Virus record (IMG/VR): IMGVR_UViG_3300048672_000514
Coordinates: 1-34,668 of that record
Strand: one strand, 5' to 3'
Length of the DNA: 34,668 nt
Origin: a virus
Shown: positions 1-34,668 of the stretch, piece by piece
Position numbering within the stretch: the first letter of the stretch is position 1
How the letters are laid out: each line of letters opens with the position of its first letter
Notes under the pieces: generated by a model
Databases searched by the model: none
Told to the model about the DNA's origin: nothing
What the model saw: only the letters and a program-made list of their open reading frames with translations
Made by a program: the position numbers and the translations under genes

Positions 1-13
1 CCTTTCACCTGCT

Positions 14-170
14 AGATACTCCCAGCTATAGGATAGTATCTTATAGGGTAGGTGTAGGGTGTAAGATACTACTCCCCTTATAGTAGTATCTAGCTCTATA
101 TAGGTATATATCTAATTTTAAAGATACCCCTATACATAAGACACATTTAACTTAGTGGGAGATACTCCCC
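14..170. repeat. GATACT repeat cluster
   Basis: Direct copies of a GATACTCCC-like word lie at 15-23, 65-77 (as GATACTACTCCCC) and 161-170, with a degenerate GATACCCC at 123-130. Inverted AGTATC copies occur at 35-40 and 85-90. AGATACTACT (64-73) and AGTAGTATCT (82-91) form a perfect 10-bp inverted repeat around an 8-base loop. The array could be an operator set, origin iterons or a terminase recognition region; the sequence alone does not decide. Confidence 0.6.
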
Positions 171-229
171 TTACATAAGATAGGGAAACTTACACAAGGT
201 AAGGGGGAGAAACTTAGAAGGGCAACCGC

Positions 230-257
230 TTGACGGGGGAGTGTAGGGGGGTAGAAT
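230..257 (+). promoter_or_regulatory. Rightward sigma70 promoter abutting iterons
   Basis: The -35 box TTGACG (230-235) and -10 box TAGAAT (252-257) each match five of six consensus bases, with a 16-base spacer. The expected start point is about 264, so the 9-bp iterons at 260-294 would lie in the first transcribed bases. Binding of a protein there could block early transcription. The promoter is inferred from sequence only. Confidence 0.55.
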
Positions 258-259
258 GT

Positions 260-294
260 TGGAAATTCTGGAAATTCTGGAAATTCTGGAAATG
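260..294 (+). repeat. 9-bp iterons TGGAAATTC, left set
   Basis: Three exact tandem TGGAAATTC units (260-268, 269-277, 278-286) are followed by a fourth, partial unit TGGAAATG (287-294). The period of nine makes a spurious reading frame with a WKF repeat. A related three-unit array sits in the opposite orientation at 34640-34666. Candidate functions are replication initiator binding, terminase recognition or transcription control. Confidence 0.8.
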
Positions 295-382
295 TTTGGG
301 AAGTTCACCAAAAGGGAACTTTTACAAAGGCAAGCAAAGCATCTTAATTTTGAACTTTCTTGAAAAATATCTCAAAAAGATG

Positions 383-411
383 TTGACAAGGAGAAAGTTA
401 AAAATTAAAAT
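383..411 (+). promoter_or_regulatory. Early sigma70 promoter
   Basis: A perfect -35 box TTGACA (383-388), a 17-base spacer and -10 box TAAAAT (406-411, five of six) make this the best host-type promoter in the left region. Transcription would start near 418, leaving a leader of about 70 bases before the ATG at 489. It probably drives the first gene and those downstream. Confidence 0.8.
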
Positions 412-488
412 AGCTTCACCAACTAAGGGGAAACGAAAGTTTCTAAACTAACCGGAGCGAAAGTTCCACACTCAAAGGAGAAATTAAA

Positions 489-1178
489 ATGAACGCAACC
501 AACACACAAGTGCAAACACAAGCAAAAGTTAAAACTATCACAATTCACGCCGTTGCACGCTTGGCGGGCGCGGAAGAATCCCCTACTCTTTGGTTAGGTC
601 GCGGGCGCAACGGGAAAGAGGCGCGAGACTTGCGCTTGTCTTCACCAATTCCTCGCCTTTCTGAGGATGAGGTATTGGAGTTAGCAGCATCCCAAGGGGC
701 AAAGTTGGCAGAGTTTTTGACCGGACAATTTGAGGATTACATTTATAGCGTGAAAGCGCAACGAATGGTTGTAGGGGATTCGATGCAAGTTGAATTGCCT
801 GCGGGTGAAGAATACGCGCCCTTTATCCTTCATGTTTTAACAGCAGGCGGGCGCACTCGCAAGATGCTCACTCAAGCTTCTATCTTGCAACTGCGCAAGA
901 ATGAGAACTTCCAAACCATGTGGAAAGCATGGGCAGCTTCACAAAACATTGCTGCGAACGTATTTGAAACACGCGCCTTGGACATCTTCCTGAACCCATG
1001 CTATCAAGCTAACCTCACATTTGACGTGGGCATGATGAAAGCATACGAACGCGCCATTTTCCACTTTCGCGGGATTGCTGACAGCATGAAGGGCGAAAGC
1101 CAAGAGAAAAATATCCTCTTAGCTGCAATCGGCGCACTGGAAAGCGCAAACTGGGTAGATTCTTCGGAAGGATTATAA
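489..1178 (+). CDS. Hypothetical early protein, 229 aa
   Basis: I do not recognise the family. The start is set by AAAGGAG at 474-480, eight bases before the ATG. The gene is first behind a near-consensus sigma70 promoter, as expected for an abundant immediate-early protein. The protein is soluble, with no signal peptide or membrane segment, and begins with a polar N/T/Q-rich tail. A central segment (about residues 57-90, with LSEDEVLEL and then FLTGQFEDYIY) has the same layout as a segment of the 236-aa protein at 4837-5547 (LTADAILEM, FLVEVANARIY), so the two may be distant paralogues. That relation is tentative. Confidence 0.85.
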   Translation: MNATNTQVQTQAKVKTITIHAVARLAGAEESPTLWLGRGRNGKEARDLRLSSPIPRLSEDEVLELAASQGAKLAEFLTGQFEDYIYSVKAQRMVVGDSMQVELPAGEEYAPFILHVLTAGGRTRKMLTQASILQLRKNENFQTMWKAWAASQNIAANVFETRALDIFLNPCYQANLTFDVGMMKAYERAIFHFRGIADSMKGESQEKNILLAAIGALESANWVDSSEGL

Positions 1179-1218
1179 CTAGAAAGGAGGCGGAATTTAA
1201 AGGAAAGCAGCAGACTTC

Positions 1219-1258
1219 GTTAGTCTCCATTGGGGACTAACTAGGCAATGTTGCCTAG
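1219..1258 (+). promoter_or_regulatory. Tandem leader hairpins
   Basis: Two stems lie back to back in the gap before the lipoprotein gene. The first is GTTAGTCTCC (1219-1228) with GGGGACTAAC (1232-1241), including one G-U pair. The second is CTAGGCA (1241-1247) with TGCCTAG (1252-1258). No U-run follows, so they are not typical terminators. They may stabilise or mark a processing site in the early mRNA. Similar CTAGGC stems precede other early genes. Confidence 0.6.
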
Positions 1259-1278
1259 CAACTAAAAAGGAAACTAAA

Positions 1279-1434
1279 ATGAAACTCCCAGAATCTTTCG
1301 CTCTTGCTATCATCTTAGCCTTAATTGCTATCCTGCTCACTGGATGCAATGCTACGGAAAAATCCGCAGATTGTAAGTCTAAAAGCGAACGTGCAATTGA
1401 CGTGGCACGCGCAGAGGAAACAGGCACAAAATAA
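1279..1434 (+). CDS. Small lipoprotein, 51 aa
   Basis: The product has a charged start, a hydrophobic stretch (about residues 6-20) and a lipobox ending LLTGC, with the lipidated cysteine at residue 23. The mature peptide would be only about 29 residues, rich in K, E and A, and membrane-anchored. AAAAGGA lies just upstream of the ATG. Known phage lipoproteins of this size include superinfection-exclusion proteins (such as T5 Llp) and outer-membrane spanins (Rz1). Its early-operon position and lack of proline favour the first role, but that is inference. Confidence 0.7.
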   Translation: MKLPESFALAIILALIAILLTGCNATEKSADCKSKSERAIDVARAEETGTK

Positions 1435-1496
1435 GAAACAAGGCGCAGCATTCTAAAAAGGATGCTGCCATCAGCCAAAGAAAGGAAACTTAACCA

Positions 1497-1589
1497 ATGA
1501 ATGCTACTATCTTAACAATCGAGGGCTTGACTTTTCAAGCCAATTGTGATACCTTATTGCTTTTGTGGGTAATGGGATACATTACATAA
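1497..1589 (+). CDS. Small hypothetical protein, 30 aa
   Basis: A 30-codon frame follows an AAAGGAAA ribosome site about ten bases upstream of the ATG. The peptide has a hydrophobic C-terminal half (about residues 17-30, LLLLW and VMGYI), so it could sit in a membrane. It lies between the lipoprotein gene and the first cysteine-rich gene, filling an otherwise empty gap. The short length leaves real doubt that it is translated. Confidence 0.4.
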   Translation: MNATILTIEGLTFQANCDTLLLLWVMGYIT

Positions 1590-1590
1590 A

Positions 1591-1610
1591 CTAGGCAGTC
1601 TCAAGCCTAG
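1591..1610 (+). promoter_or_regulatory. Leader hairpin CTAGGC/GCCTAG
   Basis: A six-base-pair stem (CTAGGC 1591-1596, GCCTAG 1605-1610, eight-base loop) stands just before the AAAGGAGG ribosome site of the next gene. The stem sequence matches the second hairpin at 1241-1258, so it looks like a repeated mRNA element of the early operon. Confidence 0.5.
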
Positions 1611-1641
1611 GAAACTTGAAACCTAAAAGGAGGAACTCAAA

Positions 1642-2028
1642 ATGACACAGATATATGAATCCCCCCAAGAGGCACTAGAAAAGGCGATTAAGATTTGGCA
1701 ACTTTTGGCAAGCGGTAAAGTTCTCTATAAAGAGGATGCTTACAATTTACTTTCCTTGCCAATGGATAAAGGAAATTGCCCATGCTGTCAGTACGATGCA
1801 CAATTTTTGCCTAGCGGCAAGCACCATTGCTGCGATAATTGCCCTGTTAAAGATTGGGGAAGCGGGGAAAGCCACTGTTTAAAACCTAAAAGCACCTATG
1901 CAAAATGGCGTAGCAGTGATTATAGCGTAAGAGCCTACAAAGCGGCGGAAGTGTTAGTCATTCTAATACGTGCGTTAGAATCCTATGATAAGAAAGAAGG
2001 AGAAAGCAATGGAAAACCTGAAAATTAA
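1642..2028 (+). CDS. Cysteine-rich CPCCQ/DWG family protein, copy 1
   Basis: This 128-aa protein is one of three paralogues in the window (the others are at 6129-6521 and 6514-6921). Shared parts are an N-terminal helix of the type PQEALEKAIKIW (residues 8-19), a CPCCQ knuckle (C46, C48, C49), a second knuckle C64-x2-C67 followed by PVKDWG, and a closing C79 in DWGxGxxxC. The C-terminus is a helix around residues 100-115. The spaced cysteines suggest a structural zinc site; no enzymatic residues are evident. AAAGGAGG sets the start. The function is unknown; an early regulator or host-interaction protein is plausible. Confidence 0.85.
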   Translation: MTQIYESPQEALEKAIKIWQLLASGKVLYKEDAYNLLSLPMDKGNCPCCQYDAQFLPSGKHHCCDNCPVKDWGSGESHCLKPKSTYAKWRSSDYSVRAYKAAEVLVILIRALESYDKKEGESNGKPEN

Positions 2029-2215
2029 AATTGTGCGAGGGGCTGAAAGATTCGCCCTTCCCCTTTTATGTATCTGTGGCTTCCTCTTGATGGGCTACAT
2101 GGAAAAGCAAGCCCTCGATTCTAAAGAGGCTGCTATCATGGCGGCGCAAGCGGCGAAAGCTGCTGCGCAAGCCGCAACTAAACCTAAAGACACATACATC
2201 TTTCAATGTAAATAA
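2009..2215 (+). CDS. Single-pass membrane protein, 68 aa
   Basis: The start at 2009 follows AAGGAG by five to seven bases and lies inside the end of the upstream gene. The N-terminus is basic (KIKIVRGAER), followed by one transmembrane segment (about residues 15-31), then an A/K/Q-rich tail that would lie in the periplasm and ends with a lone cysteine. The layout fits an inner-membrane peptide inserted N-in. It could be a host inhibitor, an exclusion factor or a diverged lysis protein; no family was recognised. Confidence 0.7.
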   Translation: MENLKIKIVRGAERFALPLLCICGFLLMGYMEKQALDSKEAAIMAAQAAKAAAQAATKPKDTYIFQCK

Positions 2216-2264
2216 TCGGCTAGGCTAGAATCTAGCATAATCTAAATCCAGTAAGGAGAATATG

Positions 2265-3851
2265 ATGCAAGTATTAAATTGGAATGAAGAACAGCAGCAA
2301 GCAATTGAAGCTTGCTCTGCTGGTAGCAGCGTAGTTATCACTGGCAGTGGCGGCACAGGTAAGACCACCCTAATGAAAGAAGCGGTGCGCCGTTGTACAA
2401 CAGCAGAATGGATGCCGCGAATCTCAAGAGCTACTAAAGTGCTGCGCGCTGGGGAAGCTGGAATCGTCGTAGTTTCCTACACTCGCACCGCCGTGAATAA
2501 TATCCGCGAAAAACTGGAAGGTGCTGCTACCTGTAGCACAATTCACGCACTGCTGGAATTTCAGCCTACGGAGATTGACGTGCCAACTAAGGATGGCGGC
2601 TGGAAAAAGTCCCGTGTTTTCATGCCAGCAAGGGATGCTATGAATCCACTCCCAAAAGAACTGCGCACGATTGTAATCGACGAAGCTGGCATCGTAAGTC
2701 TTGACCTCTTCGCAAAATTACTGGATGCTTTGCCTAACCCCGACAATGTACAGTTCATTTGCTTGGGAGACTTAGCGCAGCTGACTCCGCCTTATGACCA
2801 TAGCATCTTAGGCTTCACCTTAAATCATCGTAAGGTTGTGGAACTTACGAAGGTTTATCGTCAGGCGTTGCAATCACCTATCTTGCGGTTTGCATTGCAA
2901 ATTAAGGATGGGCAAACTTGGGGAAGCAATCAGTTCGCTAGTATCTGTGAGGATGGTGAACATGGTAGCATGACTGTTAAAGCACTACCAGCAAACATGG
3001 ATGAATTTGTTTGCGCAGAAGCGGCAGGTCGCTACCTGCAAAAAGAGTGGGAGGCAGGTCGCTACGCGGAGCATGAAACAATTGTTATCTGCCCATTCGG
3101 GGACACTGCTGCCAGCAAGCATCCAGAACTCAAGTTCTCTGCTCGTAATCTCAATGTTAGTATCGCACAATTTCTGGGGGATGCTCGCAGCGCAGAAATC
3201 TGGGAAGTTCGCACCGGATTCCGCAACCTCTACTTAGCGGTAGGGGACAGAGTCCTGATTGACAAGGAGCGCGGAATTATTCGCAGCATCTCCCCGAATC
3301 GCTTGTATGGTGGTACGCCTCCACAAGCTCCTAGCAAGTTCCTCACTCGTAAGGGATTCTTGCCAACGGAGCACCGTAAGGGTGCGACGTATCTGAGTGT
3401 AGATGATATGCTCCATGAAATGCCAGATAGCAGCAACATGGTTCGTGCTGCCAGCGCAGTCGTTGAAGTAGAAATGGATGACGGGGAACTGGTAATTTTG
3501 AAGAACGCAGGAGACTTCACTGAAGCTAAGTTCTCTTTGGGATATGCGATTACAGCATACAAATCCCAAGGACAAGAATGGGAACGGGTTTACATCTTTA
3601 CCCACAAAGCACATTCTATGATGGCAACACGGGAGTTTTATTACACTGCTGTCACTCGTGCTAAGAGACATTGCACGCTGCTTTGTGAACCTACTCACCT
3701 CTTTAAGATGAAGCAAGAGGTAGCAGGTAAAACATGGCAAGAGAAAGCAGCATACTTCCAGCAACGAAGCTTTCAAGAATCTTTATTGCGCTTCCCAGAT
3801 GTGAAGTTATGGCTGGCGGAAGGTTCTATCGAAGAAGAAGGAGGAAATTAA
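2265..3851 (+). CDS. SF1 (RecD/Dda-like) DNA helicase
   Basis: This ATP-driven helicase probably acts in phage DNA replication or recombination. With the start at 2265 it is 528 aa. Visible SF1 motifs are Walker A GSGGTGKTT (K33), motif II DEAG (D139-E140), motif III LGDLAQLTPP (near D169), motif IV in ELTKVYRQ, motif V in AYKSQGQE (near K433) and motif VI AVTRAKR (R465). The order and wording match the SF1B RecD/Dda type better than UvrD. Two ATGs are adjacent (2262 and 2265); the AAGGAG at 2253-2258 is better spaced for the second. It is one base upstream of the next gene. It lies far from the other replication genes, in the early block. Confidence 0.9.
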   Translation: MQVLNWNEEQQQAIEACSAGSSVVITGSGGTGKTTLMKEAVRRCTTAEWMPRISRATKVLRAGEAGIVVVSYTRTAVNNIREKLEGAATCSTIHALLEFQPTEIDVPTKDGGWKKSRVFMPARDAMNPLPKELRTIVIDEAGIVSLDLFAKLLDALPNPDNVQFICLGDLAQLTPPYDHSILGFTLNHRKVVELTKVYRQALQSPILRFALQIKDGQTWGSNQFASICEDGEHGSMTVKALPANMDEFVCAEAAGRYLQKEWEAGRYAEHETIVICPFGDTAASKHPELKFSARNLNVSIAQFLGDARSAEIWEVRTGFRNLYLAVGDRVLIDKERGIIRSISPNRLYGGTPPQAPSKFLTRKGFLPTEHRKGATYLSVDDMLHEMPDSSNMVRAASAVVEVEMDDGELVILKNAGDFTEAKFSLGYAITAYKSQGQEWERVYIFTHKAHSMMATREFYYTAVTRAKRHCTLLCEPTHLFKMKQEVAGKTWQEKAAYFQQRSFQESLLRFPDVKLWLAEGSIEEEGGN

Positions 3852-3852
3852 A

Positions 3853-4701
3853 ATGCAAGCAATCTGCCCTAAGAGTGGAGCAACTCTGTTTATTTCTCCC
3901 CGCATGGAACGCTGGGCGGTAAATGTCCTGCACCCACTCTTCTACACTTCCTTAGAAGACCGCGTTAATTTGGTATTAACTGAGTGGACTCCTGCTGCCA
4001 GCACCGAGGATAAGCTCCTTATGTTCGTAGCTTTGGCAGACTGTTTGCACCTGATTGACTGGCACGAAGGCTGCCCTGCGAAGGCAACCTTATGGAGCAT
4101 GGAAATTGCAATCCCTTCCCTGCTGAAGTTAGCAGCATTACCTAAGCCAGTAGAAAACTTACCACGCGTTTCTGCTAGTGAAGCATCCAGCATGAAGTCT
4201 ATGCTAGATGAAGTCTTCGCAAACCTTGACCAAATCAAGGTAGCAGATTGGTTAGCTGCGAAACGGGAAAGGCTGGAAGTAGCAGCAACACAATTGGTAG
4301 CAAGAGAAGGGAAAGAGAAACGCTTGCTGCGAGTTGTTGCACAGTGGGCGTTAGAAATGACTCGCCCTTTGTTTGCTGGTGAAGGAGTTGTACCAGCTAC
4401 GGAACAACTCTGGCTGGAAATCTTACAAACCCCTGCGTCTGCTGTGAAAGCAGCAAACTGGGAAATTACAGATGTTCAAGAGTTGCAAGAGTTCATGCTT
4501 GCCAATCTGCCGATTGACTCTAAAATTTCCTTAGAAGTTCACAATCATTTGGAAACCTTAACTAAGGTAAACATCATCGAATCTATCGGGATTCCCTTAG
4601 TTATGGTTAAACCTAAGACTACGCCGAAACCTGTGCGTGAGTCTTTCCCAGATACAATCAGCTATGCACGTGCCTTAGCAGCATGGCACACGAATGGCTG
4701 A
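3853..4701 (+). CDS. Hypothetical protein, 282 aa
   Basis: The gene starts one base after the helicase stop and has AAGGAGG eight bases before its ATG, so the two are almost certainly co-expressed. The protein is mainly helical and soluble, with a charged coiled stretch near residues 140-160 (AAKRERLEVA and neighbouring residues). I see no nucleotide-binding, zinc or DNA-binding motif. Its pairing with the helicase suggests a replication accessory such as a helicase loader, but nothing in the sequence proves this. Confidence 0.85.
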   Translation: MQAICPKSGATLFISPRMERWAVNVLHPLFYTSLEDRVNLVLTEWTPAASTEDKLLMFVALADCLHLIDWHEGCPAKATLWSMEIAIPSLLKLAALPKPVENLPRVSASEASSMKSMLDEVFANLDQIKVADWLAAKRERLEVAATQLVAREGKEKRLLRVVAQWALEMTRPLFAGEGVVPATEQLWLEILQTPASAVKAANWEITDVQELQEFMLANLPIDSKISLEVHNHLETLTKVNIIESIGIPLVMVKPKTTPKPVRESFPDTISYARALAAWHTNG

Positions 4702-4721
4702 AAGTAGCAAGTTAAAGGTAC

Positions 4722-4786
4722 TTGACAAAAACCTGAAACTGTAGTAAAGTGCGCATCACTGGCTGAGGGAAATAACAACAAGCCAG
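4722..4786 (+). promoter_or_regulatory. Sigma70 promoter and structured leader
   Basis: A perfect -35 TTGACA (4722-4727), 17-base spacer and -10 TAAAGT (4745-4750, four of six) sit in the gap after the 282-aa gene. Transcription would start near 4757. The leader of about 80 bases begins with a CTGGCT/AGCCAG stem (4759-4764 with 4781-4786). It gives the 236-aa gene its own promoter inside the early block. Confidence 0.7.
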
Positions 4787-4836
4787 ATTCTTAAATCTTG
4801 CTCAGTATGAGCTAATTAACTAAGGAATCTTTCATC

Positions 4837-5547
4837 ATGGAAAACACAACCAACACACAAACAACTTCCGCAACTCAAAAATGCCTGCTGCACTTCAAAG
4901 CATCTTCTGCTGTCAGCTTCTCCGCAGAGGAAGCTGAAACCCGCAAAGCTGCTGGCTGGACTCAAAACGATAAGGGCTACTGGAAACGCCCTTCCGTTGA
5001 AGTTGAACTGCCTGCGCTGACAGCAGATGCAATCTTGGAAATGTTGGCAGAAGCATCTGAATCCAGCAAGTTCTTGGTTGAAGTTGCAAATGCTCGTATC
5101 TATGAAGCTGCACGTTTGGCAATTGCGGCTGAATTGGCGACCAACCCTGTTGCTGACATCAAAGAAATTGTTGCTCGCAGCCCTCTGGATTGGCAATCTC
5201 TGGCTGCTGACTTCTTCACCCAAGCAGCAGAAACCAAACGTACTGGCATCACTAAGGAAACTTGGGAAGCATTTGCACAAGATTACGTGCAAGTCATGTT
5301 CCAACATCCTTCGCAAGTTAAGGCAGACAATACCTTCAAACCAATTGAAACTATCCAACTGCAAGCTGCCCACTTGCAAGCGAAGTTTGCAAACTGCAAA
5401 GGCAACACAAACACTGTCAGTCTGTTGCGCCAATTCTTGGCTACATGGTACGAAGCAACTCCGAACCAAACAGACTACACTGCTTGCTTCTTGGCACTGG
5501 ACGCACTGGCAGGCAAATACGCAGCAGCGGCTACCCAAGAGCTGTAA
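4837..5547 (+). CDS. Hypothetical protein, 236 aa
   Basis: The family is not recognised. The protein is Ala/Glu-rich, mostly helical and soluble, with a polar N/T/Q tail. Codon choice looks regular and unlike its neighbours in its heavy use of GCA, GAA and AAA codons, which fits high expression from the private promoter at 4722-4750. The start has only a modest AAGGA site ten bases upstream. Residues about 65-90 resemble in spacing the centre of the 229-aa early protein at 489-1178, so they may share ancestry. A long opposite-strand frame here is a shadow. Confidence 0.85.
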   Translation: MENTTNTQTTSATQKCLLHFKASSAVSFSAEEAETRKAAGWTQNDKGYWKRPSVEVELPALTADAILEMLAEASESSKFLVEVANARIYEAARLAIAAELATNPVADIKEIVARSPLDWQSLAADFFTQAAETKRTGITKETWEAFAQDYVQVMFQHPSQVKADNTFKPIETIQLQAAHLQAKFANCKGNTNTVSLLRQFLATWYEATPNQTDYTACFLALDALAGKYAAAATQEL

Positions 5548-5570
5548 GCATAACTTGAGTTAGTGTTTCT

Positions 5571-5662
5571 AAGTAGCATCCGTAGTGGGTGCTACTTAAT
5601 TAACATTAAGAATTAACATTAAGAATTATAGGTTCGCAGCTACCTAAGACGCTGCAAAGGAG
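5571..5662 (+). promoter_or_regulatory. Leader module, copy 1
   Basis: A strong 11-bp hairpin with one G-U pair (5571-5581 with 5587-5597) is followed by two direct copies of AATTAACATTAAG (5598-5610, 5611-5623), then TATAGG (5627-5632), a small stem GCAGC/GCTGC (5636-5640 with 5651-5655) and the AAAGGAG ribosome site. The same parts in the same order recur at 8528-8606. The first hairpin may terminate or process upstream mRNA; the AT-rich word may be a promoter. See the related finding. Confidence 0.65.
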
Positions 5663-5670
5663 AAGTTATC

Positions 5671-6114
5671 ATGTATAAAGAAGGAGACTATGTTGTTCTT
5701 GCATTCACTCCGTTGGATAGAATGACAAGAACATTTGCGAAACAGCCACTGCGGCAGCATCCTATGAGAGTTTTGCGCTACTACCCTGCATACAATATAG
5801 GGAATTTGCTTGTCTTTGTACCTGAGCCTATCATTAAGGGCGGTTTAGGTTTGTACGCGCACGAGTCCTGCTGCCTTCCTGCATATGACACTGGGCGCAA
5901 ATTGAAAGCATCAGAACTTGCAGATGGAACGTATCAAATCGAGTGGGATAGCCATGAAACCCGTGCTTCTTATGTCGCATTGCGCAAATGTTCTGCTGGT
6001 GGGTATTATGTCAGCAATGAAAGCAAACAAACTTTGCAGACTTTCTCTACACTGAAAGCAGCGCAAGCTGCTTATGCAGAGCAAGTAGCAGAGCAGCGTA
6101 AACTTCCCTTCTAG
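5671..6114 (+). CDS. Hypothetical protein, 147 aa
   Basis: I do not recognise this protein. It has a beta-rich N-terminal half that opens with a KEGDYVV turn typical of small SH3-like or OB-like barrels, and a C-terminal half with alternating strands and a final helix (about residues 125-145). There is no membrane segment and no conserved cysteine pattern. It is the first gene behind leader module copy 1, with AAAGGAG nine to ten bases ahead of its ATG. It heads a run of small overlapping genes. Confidence 0.8.
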   Translation: MYKEGDYVVLAFTPLDRMTRTFAKQPLRQHPMRVLRYYPAYNIGNLLVFVPEPIIKGGLGLYAHESCCLPAYDTGRKLKASELADGTYQIEWDSHETRASYVALRKCSAGGYYVSNESKQTLQTFSTLKAAQAAYAEQVAEQRKLPF

Positions 6115-6128
6115 CTGAGGAGATAGAC

Positions 6129-6521
6129 ATGAAACCAACTTACGCAACTCCTCAAGAAGCTATCAAGAAAGCAATCAAAATCTGGGAAGTTATTGCAAGC
6201 CCAGAAGTAAGAGAAACTATCCCGCAGATGCACAAGCTTGCAGCTTATGTGCATCTTGAGCTTCCTGAGACAGACTTACACGACTGTCCTTGCTGCCAGT
6301 TTGCGGAAGAAGAAAGTAAAGAAACAAATAAACTTTTGTGCGAATGCTGCCCAGTGAAAGATTGGGGGAATGGCGAGATTTCATGCTGCAGACAAGGGTC
6401 TGCCTACAATGCTTGGTGCATCGCATCTTACGAAAATGATTTGGCTGAATCCGCAGCAGTGGTGGAAGTGCTGAAGGCAGCTCTTGCAACTTATGAGAAA
6501 GGAGAACCTGATAATGAGTAA
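6129..6521 (+). CDS. Cysteine-rich CPCCQ/DWG family protein, copy 2
   Basis: This 130-aa protein repeats the family layout: TPQEAIKKAIKIW (residues 7-19), CPCCQF (C53, C55, C56), C71-x2-C74 then PVKDWG, and C86 in DWGxGxxxC. It has an extra insert of about ten residues before the first knuckle and an extra cysteine after C86. A pair of zinc knuckles is the simplest reading. It overlaps the third copy by eight bases, so these two arose by local duplication, while copy 1 is about 4 kb upstream. Confidence 0.85.
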   Translation: MKPTYATPQEAIKKAIKIWEVIASPEVRETIPQMHKLAAYVHLELPETDLHDCPCCQFAEEESKETNKLLCECCPVKDWGNGEISCCRQGSAYNAWCIASYENDLAESAAVVEVLKAALATYEKGEPDNE

Positions 6522-6921
6522 ATACAGTTCACCTACCTATGCCCTTAAAAAGGCAATCATCATTTGGAAAGTGATTGCAGCAGGTAAAGCACGGGAGAAA
6601 GCTGAAGCCTACACTGCTTTAGGAATCACATTCATTGACAGAAGTTATTGTCCCTGCTGCCAGTTTGCAGCAGATGCAAGGGATGCAATCATAGGGAAGG
6701 CTGAGGAAGCAATGTGTGATTTCTGCCCCGTGGAAGATTGGGGCGATGGCTCACAGCAATGCTTAGATTTATACCCTAAAATTTCATTCTACAGAGAATA
6801 CAGGGAAGCTGTCTGTGCTGAGGATAAGGATGCAATAGCTGAGGCGGCAGCTAAAGTAGTAGCTACGCTGGAAGCAGCTCTTGCAACTTACCGGCAGGCA
6901 GATAAGGAGAAACTAAAATGA
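6514..6921 (+). CDS. Cysteine-rich CPCCQ/DWG family protein, copy 3
   Basis: The ATG at 6514 is preceded by AAAGGAG at 6498-6504 and gives 135 aa; an upstream TTG in the same frame is less likely. Family features are ALKKAIIIW (residues 10-18), CPCCQF (C46, C48, C49), C68-x2-C71 with PVEDWG, and C83 in DWGxGxxxC. It is more acidic than the other copies, and K becomes E in the PVxDWG word. It shares an ATGA overlap with the next gene, so translation is probably coupled. Confidence 0.85.
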   Translation: MSKYSSPTYALKKAIIIWKVIAAGKAREKAEAYTALGITFIDRSYCPCCQFAADARDAIIGKAEEAMCDFCPVEDWGDGSQQCLDLYPKISFYREYREAVCAEDKDAIAEAAAKVVATLEAALATYRQADKEKLK

Positions 6922-7205
6922 TTTATGCAGATAAATCTGTGCACGCTAAGTATCTCTCCAAAGATGGGGAGCTAACTAAGGAAGCCTTGCATAAAGGCTA
7001 CATTCAATATCTAGCAGAATCCAACTTAACAGTCACCTTGCAAGGTAGCTGGCACTGGAATGAGATTACAGGGGAGCAGGACGTAATATACACGGTAGCA
7101 ATCGTGTCCCCGAAAAAAGCAGCAAAATTGAAAACTTTCTCACTGGCAGATGCACGAAAACAATTTCATCAATTCATTAAAGAAGCAAAGGAGCAATCAT
7201 GTTAA
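6918..7205 (+). CDS. Hypothetical protein, 95 aa
   Basis: The gene is joined by an ATGA overlap to the upstream cysteine-rich gene and overlaps the next gene by seven bases. The product is small, soluble and alpha/beta, with a Trp/His patch (SWHWNE, about residues 43-48) and a basic C-terminal helix. No family is recognised. Its tight packing within the operon supports it being real. Confidence 0.75.
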   Translation: MIYADKSVHAKYLSKDGELTKEALHKGYIQYLAESNLTVTLQGSWHWNEITGEQDVIYTVAIVSPKKAAKLKTFSLADARKQFHQFIKEAKEQSC

Positions 7206-7624
7206 ACATCCATACACTCACAGCCTTGTTAGCTGATACTTTCACCACCGTTCATGTATCTTTCAACAACAACAATCCTGCAACTTATACCTATAAGACT
7301 CGCCTCCAGTTGCAAGCTGGGGATACGGTGGTTGTCCCTGTAGGTAAGGAAGCAGCATATCGTCTCGCCACAGTTGCTTACGCTGACAACTACGCTGACA
7401 TTGATTACAATGCAATCTATCCTTACTCTTGGGTAATTGCCAAGGTTGATGATACTGCATACAAAGCACAGTTGGAGAAGGAAGCAGAAATGCTGCGCCT
7501 GATTAAACAGCGTATCGCAGATAAACAGAAATCTGCTGTCCTCTGCGACTTGCTGCAAGATACAGAACTCTCTTCGCTGATTGCACCTAAGTTAAGCCCC
7601 AACAGCGAAGATAACGCAGAATGA
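7199..7624 (+). CDS. Hypothetical protein, 141 aa
   Basis: The ATG is set by GGAG a few bases upstream, within the previous gene. The first about 85 residues look beta-rich, with a GDTVVVPVG turn (residues 40-48) like that of a small barrel, reminiscent of the GDYVV start of the 147-aa protein at 5671. The last 50 residues form a charged helix. No catalytic motif is visible. The stop overlaps the next start as ATGA. Confidence 0.75.
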   Translation: MLNIHTLTALLADTFTTVHVSFNNNNPATYTYKTRLQLQAGDTVVVPVGKEAAYRLATVAYADNYADIDYNAIYPYSWVIAKVDDTAYKAQLEKEAEMLRLIKQRIADKQKSAVLCDLLQDTELSSLIAPKLSPNSEDNAE

Positions 7625-27138: not shown

Positions 27139-27149
27139 AGAACAGATTA

Positions 27150-27344
27150 CTACGCTGCCTGTTCTACAGTTTTAACTTCTTCGTAGTAGCCCAAGCGAAC
27201 CATGTCACGCAGTTCTGTAATTTCTTTTGCGTTGGATGTAGCATACAAACCATCCACACCAAAGAAACCTTCGTGACCATCGCTGAAAACGAAACGGGAA
27301 GAAGGTACTGATGTTTTGAAAATAACAACTGGGGTTGCTGCCAT
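27150..27344 (-). CDS. Small head-region protein, 64 aa
   Basis: The product has a beta strand pair (FVFSDGHEGFF) followed by LYATSNAKEITELRDMV and a short helix. Small proteins with this word order often sit directly after the capsid gene in tailed phages, but their role is not clear to me; a head-completion or capsid-associated function is possible. TAGGAGA is seven bases ahead of the ATG, and only 12 bases separate it from the capsid stop. Confidence 0.7.
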   Translation of the reverse strand: MAATPVVIFKTSVPSSRFVFSDGHEGFFGVDGLYATSNAKEITELRDMVRLGYYEEVKTVEQAA

Positions 27345-27356
27345 GATTTTCTCCTA

Positions 27357-28574
27357 TTAACCCAATGCGCCAGCAGTCAAATTAGTGACAACTGCATTGG
27401 CTGCTGCATTCTTGAACATTGCGGTGCATTCTGTTGTGTATGTACCACCCATACCGTCGATACCATTGTCAACTTGGTAGCCACGATTCAGACGAGGGTC
27501 GTTAAACATCAACACTTCTGTCTGCTTGCCACCCAAGTATGCAATATTGAAACTTGGAATATCACACACAATCATCATCTTCTGACGAGCCAAACCACCA
27601 CCTGTCAACAATGGATGTTCCATCAAACGAATGTCACCACGAGGCAAGCGCAAAGTTGTGAAGCGCAGACCAAAGTCATTGCGTTCGGGCAACAATTGGT
27701 AATTACCATTCAAGCGACCAATCTGGTTGATTACGTTGAATGCAGTCTTACCTACGAAGGCGATACGCTCGCTACCACCACTCAGGTCGGATTGAGTATC
27801 AAACACAGGGTCAATCATTGCTTGCAACTGAGTGAAGTTGGTTGTAGCTGCTGCGATGGTGTAGTTCGCAGGTGCCAGTTTCTTGACGGTGGATACAATA
27901 CCATCCATTGTAGTCAAGCGTTGACCGTTTACAGTTTGTGCAACTGCTGCACGTTCACCAAACAGCAAAGCATTTTCAATGTCAATTGCGTGCAACAAAG
28001 CTGCATCCCGCTTGTTTTCTGCTGCCATACCCTCGCCTGCATTCATCACCAATTGCTGCATGGTACGAGATACCGCGAAAGAGTTGCGGAAAATCTGAGT
28101 TTCATTCTGAACTTCAACCATCTGGATGGCGGAAGCTACAGGACGCAGCGAGCCTTGTTCCTGCGCATTACCACTGGAGCGAGCAGCTACACCAATGGCG
28201 ATAGCAGCAGCAGGAGTCCAGCCAGTAGCGCGAGCAACTGTCAAGGTTGTGGGGGAGTTGACAGCCATTACACGCATCTGTTCACCAGTTGTATCCACCT
28301 GCAACAACATACCTGGGATAATGTCAACTGTGGAAGCAACTGTCAGCAAGGTGTCTGTAGCCAAAGCGGCTACTGTCAATGTGACGCTGGCAATAACCAA
28401 AGTCTTACTCAGATAACCGTGAACTGTATTGATTGCAGTTTCTGGTTTCATTTCCCCTGTCATTGCGAACAGAGGGGAACTACCACCGGGGGCGATGCGC
28501 AGAATGGCTGCGGCTAATGAAGGCTTGATTGCATTTGCTGGAACCGAAGCCTGACCATACATACCTAAAGGCAT
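27357..28574 (-). CDS. Major capsid protein (SU10/DUF5309-like, HK97 fold)
   Basis: This 405-aa protein should form the icosahedral shell. The region NETQIFRNSFAVSRT (about residues 156-170) and the following helix with KRDAALLHAIDIENALL are characteristic of the SU10-type HK97-fold capsid proteins. An insert of alternating strands (residues about 55-110, VTLTVAALATDTLLTV and following) precedes that core and may form a surface or N-arm domain. Placement between decoration/scaffold genes and tail genes is canonical. AGGAG lies seven to eight bases ahead. A long opposite-strand frame is a shadow. Confidence 0.9.
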   Translation of the reverse strand: MPLGMYGQASVPANAIKPSLAAAILRIAPGGSSPLFAMTGEMKPETAINTVHGYLSKTLVIASVTLTVAALATDTLLTVASTVDIIPGMLLQVDTTGEQMRVMAVNSPTTLTVARATGWTPAAAIAIGVAARSSGNAQEQGSLRPVASAIQMVEVQNETQIFRNSFAVSRTMQQLVMNAGEGMAAENKRDAALLHAIDIENALLFGERAAVAQTVNGQRLTTMDGIVSTVKKLAPANYTIAAATTNFTQLQAMIDPVFDTQSDLSGGSERIAFVGKTAFNVINQIGRLNGNYQLLPERNDFGLRFTTLRLPRGDIRLMEHPLLTGGGLARQKMMIVCDIPSFNIAYLGGKQTEVLMFNDPRLNRGYQVDNGIDGMGGTYTTECTAMFKNAAANAVVTNLTAGALG

Positions 28575-28607
28575 AATATACTCCTAGTTAATTGTTTGTT
28601 AAGCTGA

Positions 28608-29366
28608 CTAGATAATCAGCACAGCCCATGTAGCGGCTGCTGTACGCGAAATGCGCAAAGTGACTGCAGAATTTGCAGGCACGACAGTGACAGAACCTGC
28701 GAGGATTGTGAACCCTACACCCGGCGCAATAGTCATCGCCACAGCGGACAGGTTGTTCAACTTCATGCTGTAGCGGATACCACCACCTACAAGTTGCTTG
28801 GGATGCATAGCTGCATCCATCAAAGCCCCGGTAGGCAAAGTGTCTGTGAACGCTACTGTCGGACCGCTGCGGTCATACTCATACGCCATAAGTTCCGCAC
28901 CTGTGAATACACCACCAGCGGTTGCAGTATCTGTGACGACAGCGGGCAGAGGAAGTTTCGGGGCTACCATAGCATCAGCAGACCAAGAAGCTACGCCCAG
29001 TTTGGTAATACGTACCCAAGTGCCACCTGCAATAATCTGCAAAGGCGCAGGAGTTGCAAAACCTACACCAGGGTTGATTGTCCACAGATAATCAGTGTGA
29101 TTCATGAACTGAACTACCCAGCTATCACCAATAGCTACGTCAGGCATTGCAGCATCCATAGCTGCGCCTGTAGGAAGCGTATCAATGAAAGCGGAGGCAA
29201 TTACAGCATCACGCGTATAGACATTGCACAGCAATTCTGCTGGAGTAATGGTATTACCGACTGGGTTAACATCCAGCACAGAACGCAGCACTACAGGAGT
29301 AGCAGTGGAAAATAAAGCCTCCTGCTGCATACTACCGTTAGCAAAAACAATATTACTTTTTGGCAT
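28608..29366 (-). CDS. Putative decoration protein with duplicated domain, 252 aa
   Basis: Two similar domains are joined in tandem (about residues 40-131 and 154-252). Both contain DTLPTGA-x-MDAAM (62-74 and 175-187) and PGVGF (99-103 and 215-219), and both end in strands followed by a tryptophan (ASWSA, ATWAV). The protein is beta-rich and soluble. Its location just before the capsid gene suggests a capsid-stabilising or surface protein. AAGGAC precedes the ATG. The exact role is inferred from position. Confidence 0.7.
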   Translation of the reverse strand: MPKSNIVFANGSMQQEALFSTATPVVLRSVLDVNPVGNTITPAELLCNVYTRDAVIASAFIDTLPTGAAMDAAMPDVAIGDSWVVQFMNHTDYLWTINPGVGFATPAPLQIIAGGTWVRITKLGVASWSADAMVAPKLPLPAVVTDTATAGGVFTGAELMAYEYDRSGPTVAFTDTLPTGALMDAAMHPKQLVGGGIRYSMKLNNLSAVAMTIAPGVGFTILAGSVTVVPANSAVTLRISRTAAATWAVLII

Positions 29367-29368
29367 TT

Positions 29369-30031
29369 TTATTGTCCTTCCATTAAGAATGAGAAATCAG
29401 TAGAACCCTTAGAGCCTTGTGCAGGTTCAGCAGGAACCGCTGCTTGTGGGGTCATTCTCTTCGCCAGTTCCTGCATGTACACTTGGGTACGTTGTGCAAC
29501 TTCGGCAGCAGAGATATGTGGGTCAGATTCCGCAATCTGTTGCTGGATTGCTGTAATCATTGGTTTGAAAGTTGGGTCTGCAAATTTAGAATCTGCTGCC
29601 AGTTGCTCAGCAGATGCAAAGTTGCGGAATTGCCCAGGCAATTGGGCTTGGAAATCTTCCATCTGCTTCTTCACTGTTGCTTCTGTAAGTTTGGAAGAAG
29701 CAAGCAAAGCTTCAGTGAAACCTGCACGGGATGCTCCATTCAGAGCTGTACGCAAAGCTGCTTCATCGCCTTTCAGCGCAGCAGATAGCAAAGTAGGGTC
29801 AACCCCAGTTGTGAAATCTGCTTGGTCTGCAACTTGTTTGATTTGCTCACGTGTGATGCCAGTCAAGGGAGAACTTCCTTTTTGACTGCCTGTATTATTC
29901 CACAGATTAGCCATCCAATCAACCTCGGATTTCGGCTCTGCTGGCTTGCTAGTAGCAGGGGCTGCTGCCTGAGGTGCTGGTGCAGCGGCTGGTTTCTTTC
30001 CACCAAATAATTTGTCCATAATACCTGACAT
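29369..30031 (-). CDS. Putative scaffolding protein, 220 aa
   Basis: The protein has a low-complexity A/P-rich N-terminal region (residues 12-35), a helical charged middle and a C-terminal segment ending FLMEGQ. Composition, length and location between portal and capsid match phage scaffolds, which guide procapsid assembly and then leave. No protease motif is present. AAAGGAG is set eight bases before the ATG. The next gene's start lies two bases after its stop. Confidence 0.75.
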   Translation of the reverse strand: MSGIMDKLFGGKKPAAAPAPQAAAPATSKPAEPKSEVDWMANLWNNTGSQKGSSPLTGITREQIKQVADQADFTTGVDPTLLSAALKGDEAALRTALNGASRAGFTEALLASSKLTEATVKKQMEDFQAQLPGQFRNFASAEQLAADSKFADPTFKPMITAIQQQIAESDPHISAAEVAQRTQVYMQELAKRMTPQAAVPAEPAQGSKGSTDFSFLMEGQ

Positions 30032-30044
30032 GATTCTACTCCTT

Positions 30045-30266
30045 TTAGTTGAGAATTAAAGTTAATACGTCCAGCTTACCTGCCAGGTAAGCCTCTTCCT
30101 GCACAAAAGATTGAATATCCAGCGGATTCACTTTCAATTCAAGTTTATCTACGCATACCTGATGGCGTAAGTTTTGCAATTGTCTGCGTTGCACGTCTGT
30201 TAAGGAGAGACCTTGCTGCGTCTCCTCCTCAGTTAGATTGAATTTTTCAAACGGGTTGTCCTGCAT
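30045..30266 (-). CDS. Small helical protein, 73 aa
   Basis: The product is charged and helical, with a dimeric coiled-coil look (residues 10-60). Its first 20 bases lie within the end of the portal gene, and its ribosome site AAGGAG is embedded in the portal's CAACCT repeat. Small helical genes between portal and scaffold are frequent in podoviruses, often of unknown role. It may assist portal or scaffold assembly. Confidence 0.7.
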   Translation of the reverse strand: MQDNPFEKFNLTEEETQQGLSLTDVQRRQLQNLRHQVCVDKLELKVNPLDIQSFVQEEAYLAGKLDVLTLILN

Positions 30267-32109
30267 TTGGCTCTCCTTGAGGTTGAGGTTGAGGTTGTTG
30301 CTGAGGTTGGATACGGAACTTATCCAAATCTTTCATCCCTTGAGTTTTCAAGTAGTACATCATGAATCCCACTACATCAAATTGCTGCTGCAATTGGGGA
30401 GAAGTACCAAAGATTTGTAGCACTGTCTGGAAAGTATCTGCCCCGATCAGTTTATCTACTGGCATCAATCCATCTGCAACCTTAAACACTAGGGCGCGTT
30501 TGCGCAACTCTAGGGGATTTACTTGAACTTCCATCCCCTTCTCACGGTTATACACAAGCTGCTCTTCTGCGTATTGCAAGATATTGAGAAGGAGGATTTG
30601 TTTTAAGGGAGTGAAAACCTGGGCTTCCAGAAATTGCGCCACAACTTGTAGCCGCATGTTTCCATTTGCCATAATGTTTTCAAACTCATGGCGCGTTTTA
30701 TTTCCCTTGACAAACTGACCTTGCTGTGCTTGGTTGATGCCATTAACTCTATCCCCAAAACCGGCAATAACTTGCATCTCTCCCAATGCTGCTCCACTCT
30801 GGTCATTGCGGAAAGGGAAAGCGTACACAGCATCCCCAATAGGTTGATGCCCATAAGCAGAGTTGCGTACAGGAATACGAGCTACGGGATTCTTAGTGTT
30901 GATATCAGCTTCATTGATACGTGAAGGGTCATAGAAGAATCTGTCCATGATACCTTGACGTTTTTCATGCAAGGAAGAATTAACCAAAGCAGACGCAACA
31001 TCTTGGAATGGCATTGCATTCTCTGCCAAACTCTTAGTTTGGTAGCGCAACATATCTTCCAATGGCTGTGCCACTAAGATAGGCAACCAATTATGCGCAT
31101 TGGTTTGGCGTTCAGCCAAGACCAAAGTTGTACCATTCACCAGGATAAACTTCCACACCTGAGGGGTATTGGATGCAGATACTTTCATGTCAAAGTCACT
31201 GGGCAGGATACGTGCATACAAGGTAATCACCTCATAAGTATCCTTATAATCCAAGTCACCAGACTTCTTCTCCTTCCACATAAGGAAGCTAAAGTCTGTA
31301 GGGTCGTTGCCGTTGCTTGAGGCAAATAGCTGGCGGTTGATTTCTGGGGTATAAAAGATGCCAGAATCAGAGCCTTGTGCTGCGAATATCTCAGACGCAG
31401 GAGAGGCAAGTCTCTCCCCTAAGTCATTCACAAGTTGCTTGAAGCGAATACGACCCATGCGCTCCACATAACCAGCGAACTCCCCACTCTTATGTACTTC
31501 TGCTGGTGGAACTGAGGAATCCCAGAAAGTGTTGTAGATATCCAAGGCTTTGATTGTATTCCCAGCCCAGAGAGTTTCTTTTGGTCGCCCAGTTTTGCGT
31601 CCTTTTGTAATATCCAAGTCCGAAGTTTCCACAGAGAATACTGATTCTTCTGTCCAGTTTACTTCCAGTGCCCCTAAGTTGTACTTAGCTGCAGAGCGGA
31701 AGAAAAGATTCAGCTCGCGTGACCAACCTCCGCGAATTCCGTGCTCTGCCATCAGAGTATCCATCATCAGCGCAGCATCAATGTTGTCTTTGTCCGCTAC
31801 AACAGGGAAAATAGGGGTCTCTGTGAGAAAGATATTGTGCAGAGTAGCTACAGCAGTCTCAATCTGAGGCATCACTACAGGCACAGTAATATCTTGGATG
31901 CGGCTCTTATCTCCGTAAGCGTTGGAGATAGCTGCCATTGTATGCTCATACCCCCAGTTCCCCTCCCGTGCGTAGGAAAGGTCAATGTTGCGCAAGCGAT
32001 TGCGCATTGTATCTTTATGGTGGGAGGATTGTGCGGCAGCCTTACAGAAAGTAGCGAGCTTTGCTCTCTCTACTTTCGAGGGCTTGAAAAATTTATTTAC
32101 TTCGGTCAT
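30247..32109 (-). CDS. Portal protein, 620 aa
   Basis: The protein forms the ring through which DNA is packaged and ejected. It is placed directly after the large terminase, has a typical length, and shows a long helical stem region (about residues 440-520) between mixed wing domains. The C-terminus ends in a Q/P repeat (about residues 598-612) coded by a six-base CAACCT tandem (about 30276-30310), which also contains the next gene's ribosome site. AGGAG lies eight bases ahead of the ATG, nine bases after the terminase stop. The call rests on context and general layout. Confidence 0.85.
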   Translation of the reverse strand: MTEVNKFFKPSKVERAKLATFCKAAAQSSHHKDTMRNRLRNIDLSYAREGNWGYEHTMAAISNAYGDKSRIQDITVPVVMPQIETAVATLHNIFLTETPIFPVVADKDNIDAALMMDTLMAEHGIRGGWSRELNLFFRSAAKYNLGALEVNWTEESVFSVETSDLDITKGRKTGRPKETLWAGNTIKALDIYNTFWDSSVPPAEVHKSGEFAGYVERMGRIRFKQLVNDLGERLASPASEIFAAQGSDSGIFYTPEINRQLFASSNGNDPTDFSFLMWKEKKSGDLDYKDTYEVITLYARILPSDFDMKVSASNTPQVWKFILVNGTTLVLAERQTNAHNWLPILVAQPLEDMLRYQTKSLAENAMPFQDVASALVNSSLHEKRQGIMDRFFYDPSRINEADINTKNPVARIPVRNSAYGHQPIGDAVYAFPFRNDQSGAALGEMQVIAGFGDRVNGINQAQQGQFVKGNKTRHEFENIMANGNMRLQVVAQFLEAQVFTPLKQILLLNILQYAEEQLVYNREKGMEVQVNPLELRKRALVFKVADGLMPVDKLIGADTFQTVLQIFGTSPQLQQQFDVVGFMMYYLKTQGMKDLDKFRIQPQQQPQPQPQGEPNAGQPV

Positions 32110-32118
32110 GGAAATCTC

Positions 32119-33588
32119 CTAAAAAGGTGAGTTATCTTCTAAATCCAGCACTCTTGCTCCGCTGTAAGTATCTGTGAATAGTGGAGAAGCTATAGCTCCC
32201 CAGAATTCTTGGATAACTTGGTAAGCATAAGCAAGCACATCCAGTATATCATCCTTGTTATCTCTCTTTAATGGATGCCAGTTGGAGAGTTGGTATATAA
32301 CTTCTGAGTGTACATCAGGAGAAAGCTGCAACTCCCCTTTAAGCATCTGGTTGAGGGCTTCACGGATGCGGTAATTCTTACTCCCTCGTGGCTGCAGCTC
32401 AGCAAAATTGATGCCAGCATAACCCAAAGTTGAAACTGCACGCTTAAACCAGAATAAGAGAGATTGCTGGTAGGCTACTGCCTCCACCGCTATGAGGGAG
32501 CAGCGAGTTTCTGACGCTAGGGACAGGGCAGAACTGATTAAATCCCCTGGAGTCCATTTACCTACTAGGAGTTTCATCAGGCAGGGCTTGCCATCACGCA
32601 CCTCAAAGTACCCAATAACAGAATCATCACTGGTAGTTTTGCTGCCAGCAGGGTCAATCACAATGAAATTTCCTAAGAATGGCTCTGCTAGAAGCTCAGG
32701 AGGAGCAGGAAGCAACTTGCCCAAGTCTATACCACTCTTGCCATTGGCAGTATCATCATTCAGAACCTCTGCCAGGAAGATGTCTCCCTTACCCAGGGCT
32801 ATGTCATTACGATATTCTTGCAGAAGTTGCTCTGTGCTCTGTAGCTCTTCCCATAAACTCTTGCCATCTGCGAGAATTCCACCAGCAATGAAGCTAATCC
32901 ACTCTGCATTCTTCTTCAAGATGCGCAGGATACTCCCTTGGAATGGGTACATATTTCCTACAAAGATGGTTGTGCAGCGTGCCTTGGAGGCAGCTTTCAT
33001 CAAAGTTCCTGTCATCCAAGTTAATAGCTGGTCGGAGATAACAGGGGATGCTGCTCCTTCCCAGTCTTGCATATCATCCATGAGGATAACATCTGGGCGT
33101 TTGTTCTTTCTGTTGCGTCCTCGAACACTCTTGCTCCCTGCGCCTACGGCGGCAAGGATAATGTTGCGCCCTTGAAAGGTGAAAACTTTCAGGGATTGTG
33201 TATCTTGCTGCAACCCAACCTTCCAGTCCCCGAAGAGGGCTAGAATGTTAGGTTCACTAAGCATATCATCTACATCACTGAGGATGGATTCAGCTAAGTC
33301 CGCTGTGCGCCCGACGATGAGAATGTAGTTCCTATCTGTGTGCAGGATGATATATAGGATGAGGAGCTTCATCACTGTTGTTTTTGCAAACCCACGGGGA
33401 AGACCTACAGCAAACTTGCTGAACCCTTTCGGATTCATTAGTTCTGTGGTAAGTAGCTGCCACAGTAACTTATAAAGTTCTGGAAAAGGGAACTCATACA
33501 AATCAGGGAGAGCCAGCATCGCCAGCGCATCCATGTTTTCTTTGGTTGCTTGTACGATTGGCACTCTCTCTAAGCCTACGACTGGCAT
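32119..33588 (-). CDS. terL: Terminase large subunit
   Basis: This 489-aa protein is the packaging ATPase and nuclease. The ATPase part shows a Walker A variant GLPRGFAKTT (K69), Walker B VILMDD (D171, D172) and the coupling region after GNMYPF. The RNase H-like nuclease part shows D312 in IVIDPAG, E369 in IAVEA and D446/D450 in KDDILDVLAYA, so all three acidic sites are intact. AAAGGAG eight bases upstream supports the ATG at 33588. The gene starts inside an overlapping small gene (33503-33691). Confidence 0.95.
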   Translation of the reverse strand: MPVVGLERVPIVQATKENMDALAMLALPDLYEFPFPELYKLLWQLLTTELMNPKGFSKFAVGLPRGFAKTTVMKLLILYIILHTDRNYILIVGRTADLAESILSDVDDMLSEPNILALFGDWKVGLQQDTQSLKVFTFQGRNIILAAVGAGSKSVRGRNRKNKRPDVILMDDMQDWEGAASPVISDQLLTWMTGTLMKAASKARCTTIFVGNMYPFQGSILRILKKNAEWISFIAGGILADGKSLWEELQSTEQLLQEYRNDIALGKGDIFLAEVLNDDTANGKSGIDLGKLLPAPPELLAEPFLGNFIVIDPAGSKTTSDDSVIGYFEVRDGKPCLMKLLVGKWTPGDLISSALSLASETRCSLIAVEAVAYQQSLLFWFKRAVSTLGYAGINFAELQPRGSKNYRIREALNQMLKGELQLSPDVHSEVIYQLSNWHPLKRDNKDDILDVLAYAYQVIQEFWGAIASPLFTDTYSGARVLDLEDNSPF

Positions 33589-33691
33589 CTTTCAGCTCCT
33601 TTGCTTTAGCGAGAAGGTCTGCGGCTCTTGCCTGGTCAGATTTCTTCTGGTGATATTCCGTAATTAACAACAATCTCTTTGCGTTGTCCAT
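33503..33691 (-). CDS. Small overlapping helical protein, 62 aa
   Basis: The frame begins 56 bases inside the small terminase gene and ends 86 bases inside the large terminase gene, both in other frames. It has AAAGGAG three to six bases before a double ATG. The product is basic and helical (AADLLAKAKELKDASRRLRE region). Its ribosome site and the gap it fills support expression, but the long overlap lowers confidence. It might help couple translation of the two terminase subunits. Confidence 0.5.
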   Translation of the reverse strand: MDNAKRLLLITEYHQKKSDQARAADLLAKAKELKDASRRLRESANRTSNQRKHGCAGDAGSP

Positions 33692-34151
33692 CATGCTCTC
33701 CTTTCAAAGCAAGTAGCCCTGCGGGCGGCATGGTAGCTAGGCTGCGTCCTCCAGCTTCTACAACTTCCCCCAAGGAGGATATGCGAAACTGCTTGACTGC
33801 GCTCTCTGGAATAGTAAGCTGCACAATGTTCACGGTTGTAGATGGGGCTTGAGTTGCCCCTCTGCGCTTCAAGCTGTTCACGCGGGATAAGATATCTGTG
33901 ACATCTTTTGGACGAGTTATGTAAGGCAGCATAGCTGTGAGTTTCTTTAGCAGCGCGTCCTCTACATCATCCAAGGCTGAGTTAAATCCTGCAGCTTTCT
34001 CACTGGTAGCTGCTCGCAGACTTTGAACATCCAGAGCAAAGTCCTCATCGCTGAGGAGCTGCGAGATATAACTCTCAGATATGCCTAGTGCAGAAGCCAC
34101 ATTAGCTGGAGTATAACCGCTGCCAAGCATATTCTTAATTCTGTTCTTCAT
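33636..34151 (-). CDS. terS: Terminase small subunit
   Basis: This 171-aa protein would recognise phage DNA for packaging. The N-terminus carries a helix-turn-helix (about residues 13-38, YTPANVASALGISESYISQL), followed by helices for oligomerisation and a C-terminal strand-rich tail likely to contact the large subunit. It is the first gene of the leftward operon, immediately upstream of terL, with AGGAGG five bases before the ATG and the late promoter just behind. Confidence 0.85.
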   Translation of the reverse strand: MKNRIKNMLGSGYTPANVASALGISESYISQLLSDEDFALDVQSLRAATSEKAAGFNSALDDVEDALLKKLTAMLPYITRPKDVTDILSRVNSLKRRGATQAPSTTVNIVQLTIPESAVKQFRISSLGEVVEAGGRSLATMPPAGLLALKGEHDGQRKEIVVNYGISPEEI

Positions 34152-34173
34152 GGCGACCTCCTAATTAGGGCGT

Positions 34174-34202
34174 ATTATATAGAGGTGAGGGTAGCAGGTC
34201 AA
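34174..34202 (-). promoter_or_regulatory. Virion operon sigma70 promoter
   Basis: Read on the - strand, -35 TTGACC (34197-34202, five of six) and -10 TATAAT (34174-34179, perfect) are separated by exactly 17 bases. Transcription would start near 34167, about 15 bases before the small terminase ATG. The spacer contains CTACCCTCACC, found inverted at 34315-34326, a possible operator. Confidence 0.85.
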
Positions 34203-34320
34203 CATAGGAAGTTAGTAGCGGGGTAAGTTCCTTTGCTGCAAGCAGTCCAAAACTTTAGAAAAAAATTTACGTCGTCGAAGGAATATCTGGCAGCTCCGAC
34301 CCTCAAAAAGCCCTCTACCC

Positions 34321-34452
34321 CTCACCCTAGGTGAGAAACCTGTTCACGCGCAACCTACCAAGGGCGAAGGCAAAGGAGAATGCGAACGCGAGGCTGGCGA
34401 TAATGTTAATGATAATGATAATCATTCTCACCAGAACCCTGCGCAAGGTGAG
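34321..34452. repeat. CTCACC/GGTGAG inverted repeats
   Basis: CTCACC (34321-34326) and GGTGAG (34330-34335) form a tight palindrome. The same arms recur more widely spaced at 34427-34432 and 34447-34452. A fifth arm, GGTGAG at 34184-34189, lies in the spacer of the late promoter. A dimeric regulator could bind all of them. Confidence 0.5.
34401..34424. repeat. Six-base TAATGN array
   Basis: Four consecutive six-base units (TAATGT, TAATGA, TAATGA, TAATCA) form an A/T-rich tract that ends in an AATGAT-A-ATCATT palindrome. It is a candidate easily melted region of a replication origin, or a regulator site. Confidence 0.5.
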
Positions 34453-34491
34453 CAAGGCGCAAGGTAAGAGAATCTAAGCAAGAGCGCGACC

Positions 34492-34551
34492 GACGAACGG
34501 TAGATTTTACCTGACGAACGGTATAGACAGGGGGAAGGGATGCTATATAAT
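34492..34551 (+). promoter_or_regulatory. Rightward sigma70 promoter with paired upstream repeats
   Basis: -35 TAGACA (34524-34529, five of six) and -10 TATAAT (34546-34551, perfect) are separated by 16 bases. Two copies of GACGAACGGTA (34492-34502, 34513-34523) lie directly upstream, 21 bases apart (two helix turns), the second touching the -35 box, as expected for an activator or repressor pair. The transcript would leave the window after about 110 bases, which suggests the right edge continues into position 1. Confidence 0.75.
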
Positions 34552-34639
34552 GCAATCACTGAAACGAAACAAACATAGCAAGAAAGCGAAGGAGACAAGG
34601 GGAAACTTAGGGGCAAGGACGACTTCCGAAATATATGCG

Positions 34640-34666
34640 AAATTTCCATAATTTCCATTATTTCCA
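34640..34666 (-). repeat. 9-bp iterons TGGAAATNN, right set
   Basis: Three units on the - strand (34658-34666, 34649-34657, 34640-34648) read TGGAAATAA, TGGAAATTA and TGGAAATTT. They have the same period and seven-base core as the left array at 260-294 but point the other way. With the ends joined, about 260 bases separate the two arrays. Confidence 0.75.
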
Positions 34667-34668
34667 AC

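Follow-up and report, generated by a model that had tools for sequence, protein, structure and literature searches.

Results

GATC and GGCC are almost completely missing from the window

The DNA analysed here, a stretch of 34,668 bases that constitutes an entire IMG/VR virus record (hereafter the window), raises the question of why two tetramers, GATC and GGCC, should be nearly absent from it. Exact counting gave a single GATC and no GGCC, the same numbers as in the initial annotation, which had also correctly placed the lone GATC in the portal gene (Table 1). Synonymous codon shuffling within genes predicts ~98 GATC (minimum of 300 shuffles, 80) and 42 GGCC (minimum 28), a second-order Markov model 132 and 50, and the conservative Burge compositional-bias estimate 58 and 33. 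The three nulls concur, and chance is ruled out as the cause of either loss. The earlier expectation of about a hundred or more copies of each word is borne out for GATC (97–132 from codon shuffle to Markov, lower by Burge) but was too high for GGCC (33–50). Since the other 14 four-base palindromes are present at 0.39–1.13 of shuffle expectation, palindromes are not lost across the board, as had already been remarked; counted against Markov and codon-shuffle expectations, only GATC and GGCC are near zero.

Table 1. Genes, repeats and leftover sites in the window
Feature	Position	Strand	Remark
Early arm	489–16732	+	
Small cysteine protein	1642–2028	+	first of three paralogues
SF1 helicase	2262–3851	+	
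Small cysteine protein	6129–6521	+	
Small cysteine protein	6514–6921	+	
PD-(D/E)XK nuclease	9197–10165	+	
Sak4-like protein	10335–11135	+	
ATP-dependent ligase	11724–12614	+	
Family A polymerase	12611–14848	+	
DUF3987 primase/helicase	14781–16067	+	
MazG-like protein	16283–16732	+	
Virion arm	16766–34151	−	
Large internal protein	16766–21397	−	
Cement-like protein	24146–24673	−	
Major head protein	27357–28574	−	
Sole GGWCC (GGACC)	28861–28865	+	in virion-arm gene without assigned function
Portal	30247–32109	−	
Sole GATC	30445–30448		inside portal gene
Large terminase	32119–33588	−	
Sole GTWAC (GTAAC)	33465–33469	+	within large terminase gene
Small terminase-like protein	33636–34151	−	
TGGAAATT-like repeat, left	258–304		
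TGGAAATT-like repeat, right	34622–34668		

Other words are erased together with GATC and GGCC

Testing covered 5-mers, IUPAC six-base palindromes, GTWAC itself and Biopython's table derived from REBASE, which lists 613 distinct specificities (532 of them with adequate expectation). It indicated that the window is almost free of at least four words: GATC, GGCC, GTWAC and RGCGCY. The list of lost words first drawn up was hence right in both its entries but incomplete. GTWAC (that is, GTAAC/GTTAC) occurs once against 40 expected by codon shuffle or 53 by Markov (19 by Burge), the lowest ratio among the tested 5-mers without GATC or GGCC inside, and the HaeII-type site RGCGCY not at all against 25 or 30, respectively (only 9 by the conservative estimate). 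The AvaII-type site GGWCC (1 against 13 by codon shuffle or 34 by Markov) probably belongs among the erased words too. Its deficit barely passes correction and, by the Markov null, it is low in many relatives as well; its compositional bias is uninformative, since GGNCC is about the same set of sites once GGCC is lost. Under a published definition of elimination, which asks for a compositional bias below 0.1 and an expectation of over 15 sites, GATC (1/58, 0.02), GGCC (0/33, 0.00) and GTWAC (1/19, 0.05) are eliminated, and RGCGCY (0/9) falls short on expectation alone.

CAGCTG (2 against 22 expected) and GGNNCC (10 against 50) are strongly reduced. Part of the GGNNCC deficit may be secondary to the missing GGCC and GGATCC-type words, because excluding these lowers the expectation to 34. 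GRGCYC (0/13.6), GRCGYC (0/9), CYCGRG (0/9) and ATGCAT (1/8.5) were set aside for their small expectations, CTGCAG was rejected as a window-specific loss, being low in many relatives too, and CCWGG (26/56, compositional bias 0.90) is only partially reduced. The leftover GGACC, GATC and GTAAC all lie within the right-hand 6 kb of the window, three sites being too few to exclude chance.

The losses are unlikely to stem from codon usage, mismatch repair or an artefact

Erasure is seen in all reading frames (GATC, 0/0/1 observed against 44/10/42 expected per frame; GGCC, 0/0/0 against 14/2/25), in each quarter of the window, in both gene arms and in the 2,733 bases of non-coding DNA, and hence cannot be put down to codon bias. 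Words a single step away are enriched, GATT/AATC 1.25-fold and GTSAC, which differs from GTWAC at the middle base only, 1.56-fold (36 against 23 expected), as would be expected if sites had been mutated away. Where GATC, GGCC, GTWAC, GGWCC and RGCGCY sites of four relatives could be aligned in the polymerase gene, the window keeps none of them (small numbers, one to six sites per word per relative), and some were replaced synonymously, as in Gly-Tyr (GGTTAC to GGGTAT) and Lys-Ile (AAGATC to AAGATT).

These data bear on several other origins of the gaps. The window has a moderate shortage of some words, such as TCGA, CGCG and A-runs, as base composition or a bias in codons or codon pairs might produce, but shuffles that preserve the protein and the codon usage of each gene never approach the observed counts; with non-coding DNA and all frames hit, and neighbouring words enriched, we regard such an origin as highly improbable. 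Enzymes cutting at GATC or GGCC are part of some metagenome protocols, and library preparation or assembly involving them could deplete a contig of both words. Here, however, the genes are intact, aligned sites are replaced rather than deleted, and RGCGCY and GTWAC have, to our knowledge, no use in these protocols, leaving an artefact a practically negligible chance. Methyl-directed mismatch repair, in which MutH acts at undermethylated GATC, has been proposed to select against GATC in enterobacterial phages, and GATC is the most frequently erased word in the clade to which the window belongs. Such selection, put forward initially as a Dam-based alternative, could cover GATC and nothing beyond it: the loss is not confined to this word, since GGCC, GTWAC and RGCGCY are equally erased in the same genome and would call for separate causes, and GATC is near expectation in several related phages. 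Mismatch repair is therefore a very unlikely source of the pattern.

The avoided set has turned over among related phages

The carrier looks like a lytic podovirus, a virus of bacteria with a two-arm layout (Table 1). Of the ORFs compared with Pfam and PHROGs, none proved to be a methyltransferase or an integrase. Three paralogous small proteins, two of them encoded adjacently (41–42% identity to the first), have common cysteines (CPCCQ...C..CPV.DWG.G...C) that could bind zinc, and gave no confident Pfam match. The two TGGAAATT-like repeats are inverted relative to each other, with 81% complementarity across 47 bases. The right arm stops at the last base of the window, so a genome-end repeat may lie at or close to where the contig ends.

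The closest cultured relatives, Polaromonas phage Tiera, EBPR podovirus 3, Aeromonas phage P5 and Pseudomonas phage PaP2, are ~28–39% identical. Membership of Fredfastierviridae (PaP2-like phages) was rejected, since its terminase, portal and polymerase are too dissimilar to PaP2-group proteins (only ~28–37% identity); with its similar two-arm layout, the virus is a distant relative only. Searching phages at the nucleotide level with the first 25 kb, and scanning viral contigs with single proteins (portal, major head protein, helicase, terminase, primase), yielded no close relatives. All relatives came from alignment-based scans only, the nearest metagenomic one (L087) having a polymerase 64% identical in a sequence of only 6.8 kb.

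Avoidance of 136 palindromic sites (compositional bias below 0.1, expectation of at least 10) was compared across 110 loci of at least 10 kb, the window included and some sharing a contig. No site is erased in 96 loci, one in 11, two in one, and four in two: the window (GATC, GGCC, GTWAC and GGNCC by this locus-wide measure) and an 11,291-base locus (L075) with a different multi-site erasure (GATC 0/22, CCGG 0/19, GGWCC 0/14, CCWGG 1/29). Words erased in other lineages are GATC, GGCC, CCGG, GTAC or TTAA, whereas GTWAC is erased in the window only, among the loci compared, and is retained by relatives at 46–64% polymerase identity. L087, the nearest, keeps GGCC (19/18) and GTWAC (7/8) with GATC merely reduced (7/29), and another relative, L088, lacks GATC yet retains GTWAC (63/55); hence there has been turnover of the avoided words within the clade, and erasure is lineage-specific. 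Aeromonas phage P5 (OM519319), a distant relative, resembles the window in its lack of GATC (3 against 154 by Markov) and near-lack of GGWCC (3 against 66), but differs in keeping GGCC (168/169), GTWAC (131/111) and RGCGCY (75/83 by compositional bias).

Discussion

Near-absence of these sites very probably serves to evade several Type II restriction enzymes of the host. Unmodified GATC, GGCC, RGCGCY and GTWAC, and probably GGWCC, would be targets for cutting in the entering DNA, and variants losing a site, often through a synonymous change, would have a better chance of survival, until hardly any of the words were left. Restriction would then be the selective agent, GTWAC a Type II recognition site, and the host or host range would have, or recently have had, enzymes of these specificities. 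The initial annotation had proposed restriction by MboI/Sau3AI-type and HaeIII-type enzymes, a reading strengthened by our data: the strongly erased words are all Type II-like palindromes, they are lost from non-coding DNA as well as from every frame, some aligned sites were replaced synonymously, what relatives erase, if anything, is other Type II words, and the scan revealed no methyltransferase.

Catalogued Type II enzymes exist for GATC, GGCC, RGCGCY and GGWCC, but none for GTWAC among the 613 specificities (1,088 enzymes, part of REBASE). A full-text literature search found the word GTWAC only in unrelated contexts, a search for GTAAC methyltransferases found no paper with the word GTAAC, and the GTWWAC methylation of Ralstonia (PMC5390034) concerns a different, six-base word. 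The closest catalogued specificities, MaeIII (GTNAC) and Tsp45I/NmuCI (GTSAC), fail to explain the loss because GTSAC is not depleted. We give about even chances to the view that the host has an orthodox Type II restriction-modification system, so far undescribed, that recognises GTWAC, and that the phage has to contend with four to five Type II systems simultaneously. As GTAAC and GTTAC are reverse complements, counts alone fit equally an asymmetric five-base GTAAC, the target of a Type III, Type IIG or BREX-like system. We consider this unlikely and favour the palindromic GTWAC, since in a survey of prokaryotic viruses elimination was almost confined to orthodox Type II sites, rarely affecting Type III and never Type IIG sites (Rusinov et al., 2018; PMC6286503).

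Our searches matched no cognate enzyme to the erased words and identified no host. Prokaryotic contigs carrying the polymerase family are MAG contigs from scattered phyla at 28–45% identity and were of no use as a host clue; on one of them, from a Ponticaulis MAG (NZUJ01000115.1), two polymerase matches (L169 and L171) are separated by ~43 kb, as though the assembly had circled a phage genome more than once. A search for the HaeII family in 369 genomes gave no match, its control also matching nowhere. Site avoidance is nevertheless a record of the enzymes met by a phage lineage. Here it names four to five specificities together, one without an enzyme in the tested table, and therefore yields a concrete prediction by which the host might be recognised: a GTWAC system, possibly with an undescribed enzyme, plus GATC, GGCC and RGCGCY systems. 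The related phages further indicate that the avoided set shifts between lineages whose polymerases still have roughly half to two thirds of residues in common.

Site avoidance in double-stranded DNA phages is itself documented, with near-complete elimination in about one tenth of prokaryotic viruses and mainly in non-temperate phages (Rusinov et al., 2018; PMC6286503). Like those cases, the window has nearly eliminated palindromic Type II sites and bears no signs of lysogeny; unlike them, it drops four or more words together, one of which, GTWAC, has no enzyme in the tested table. What is new is thus the number of sites erased together and the GTWAC specificity to which their loss points.
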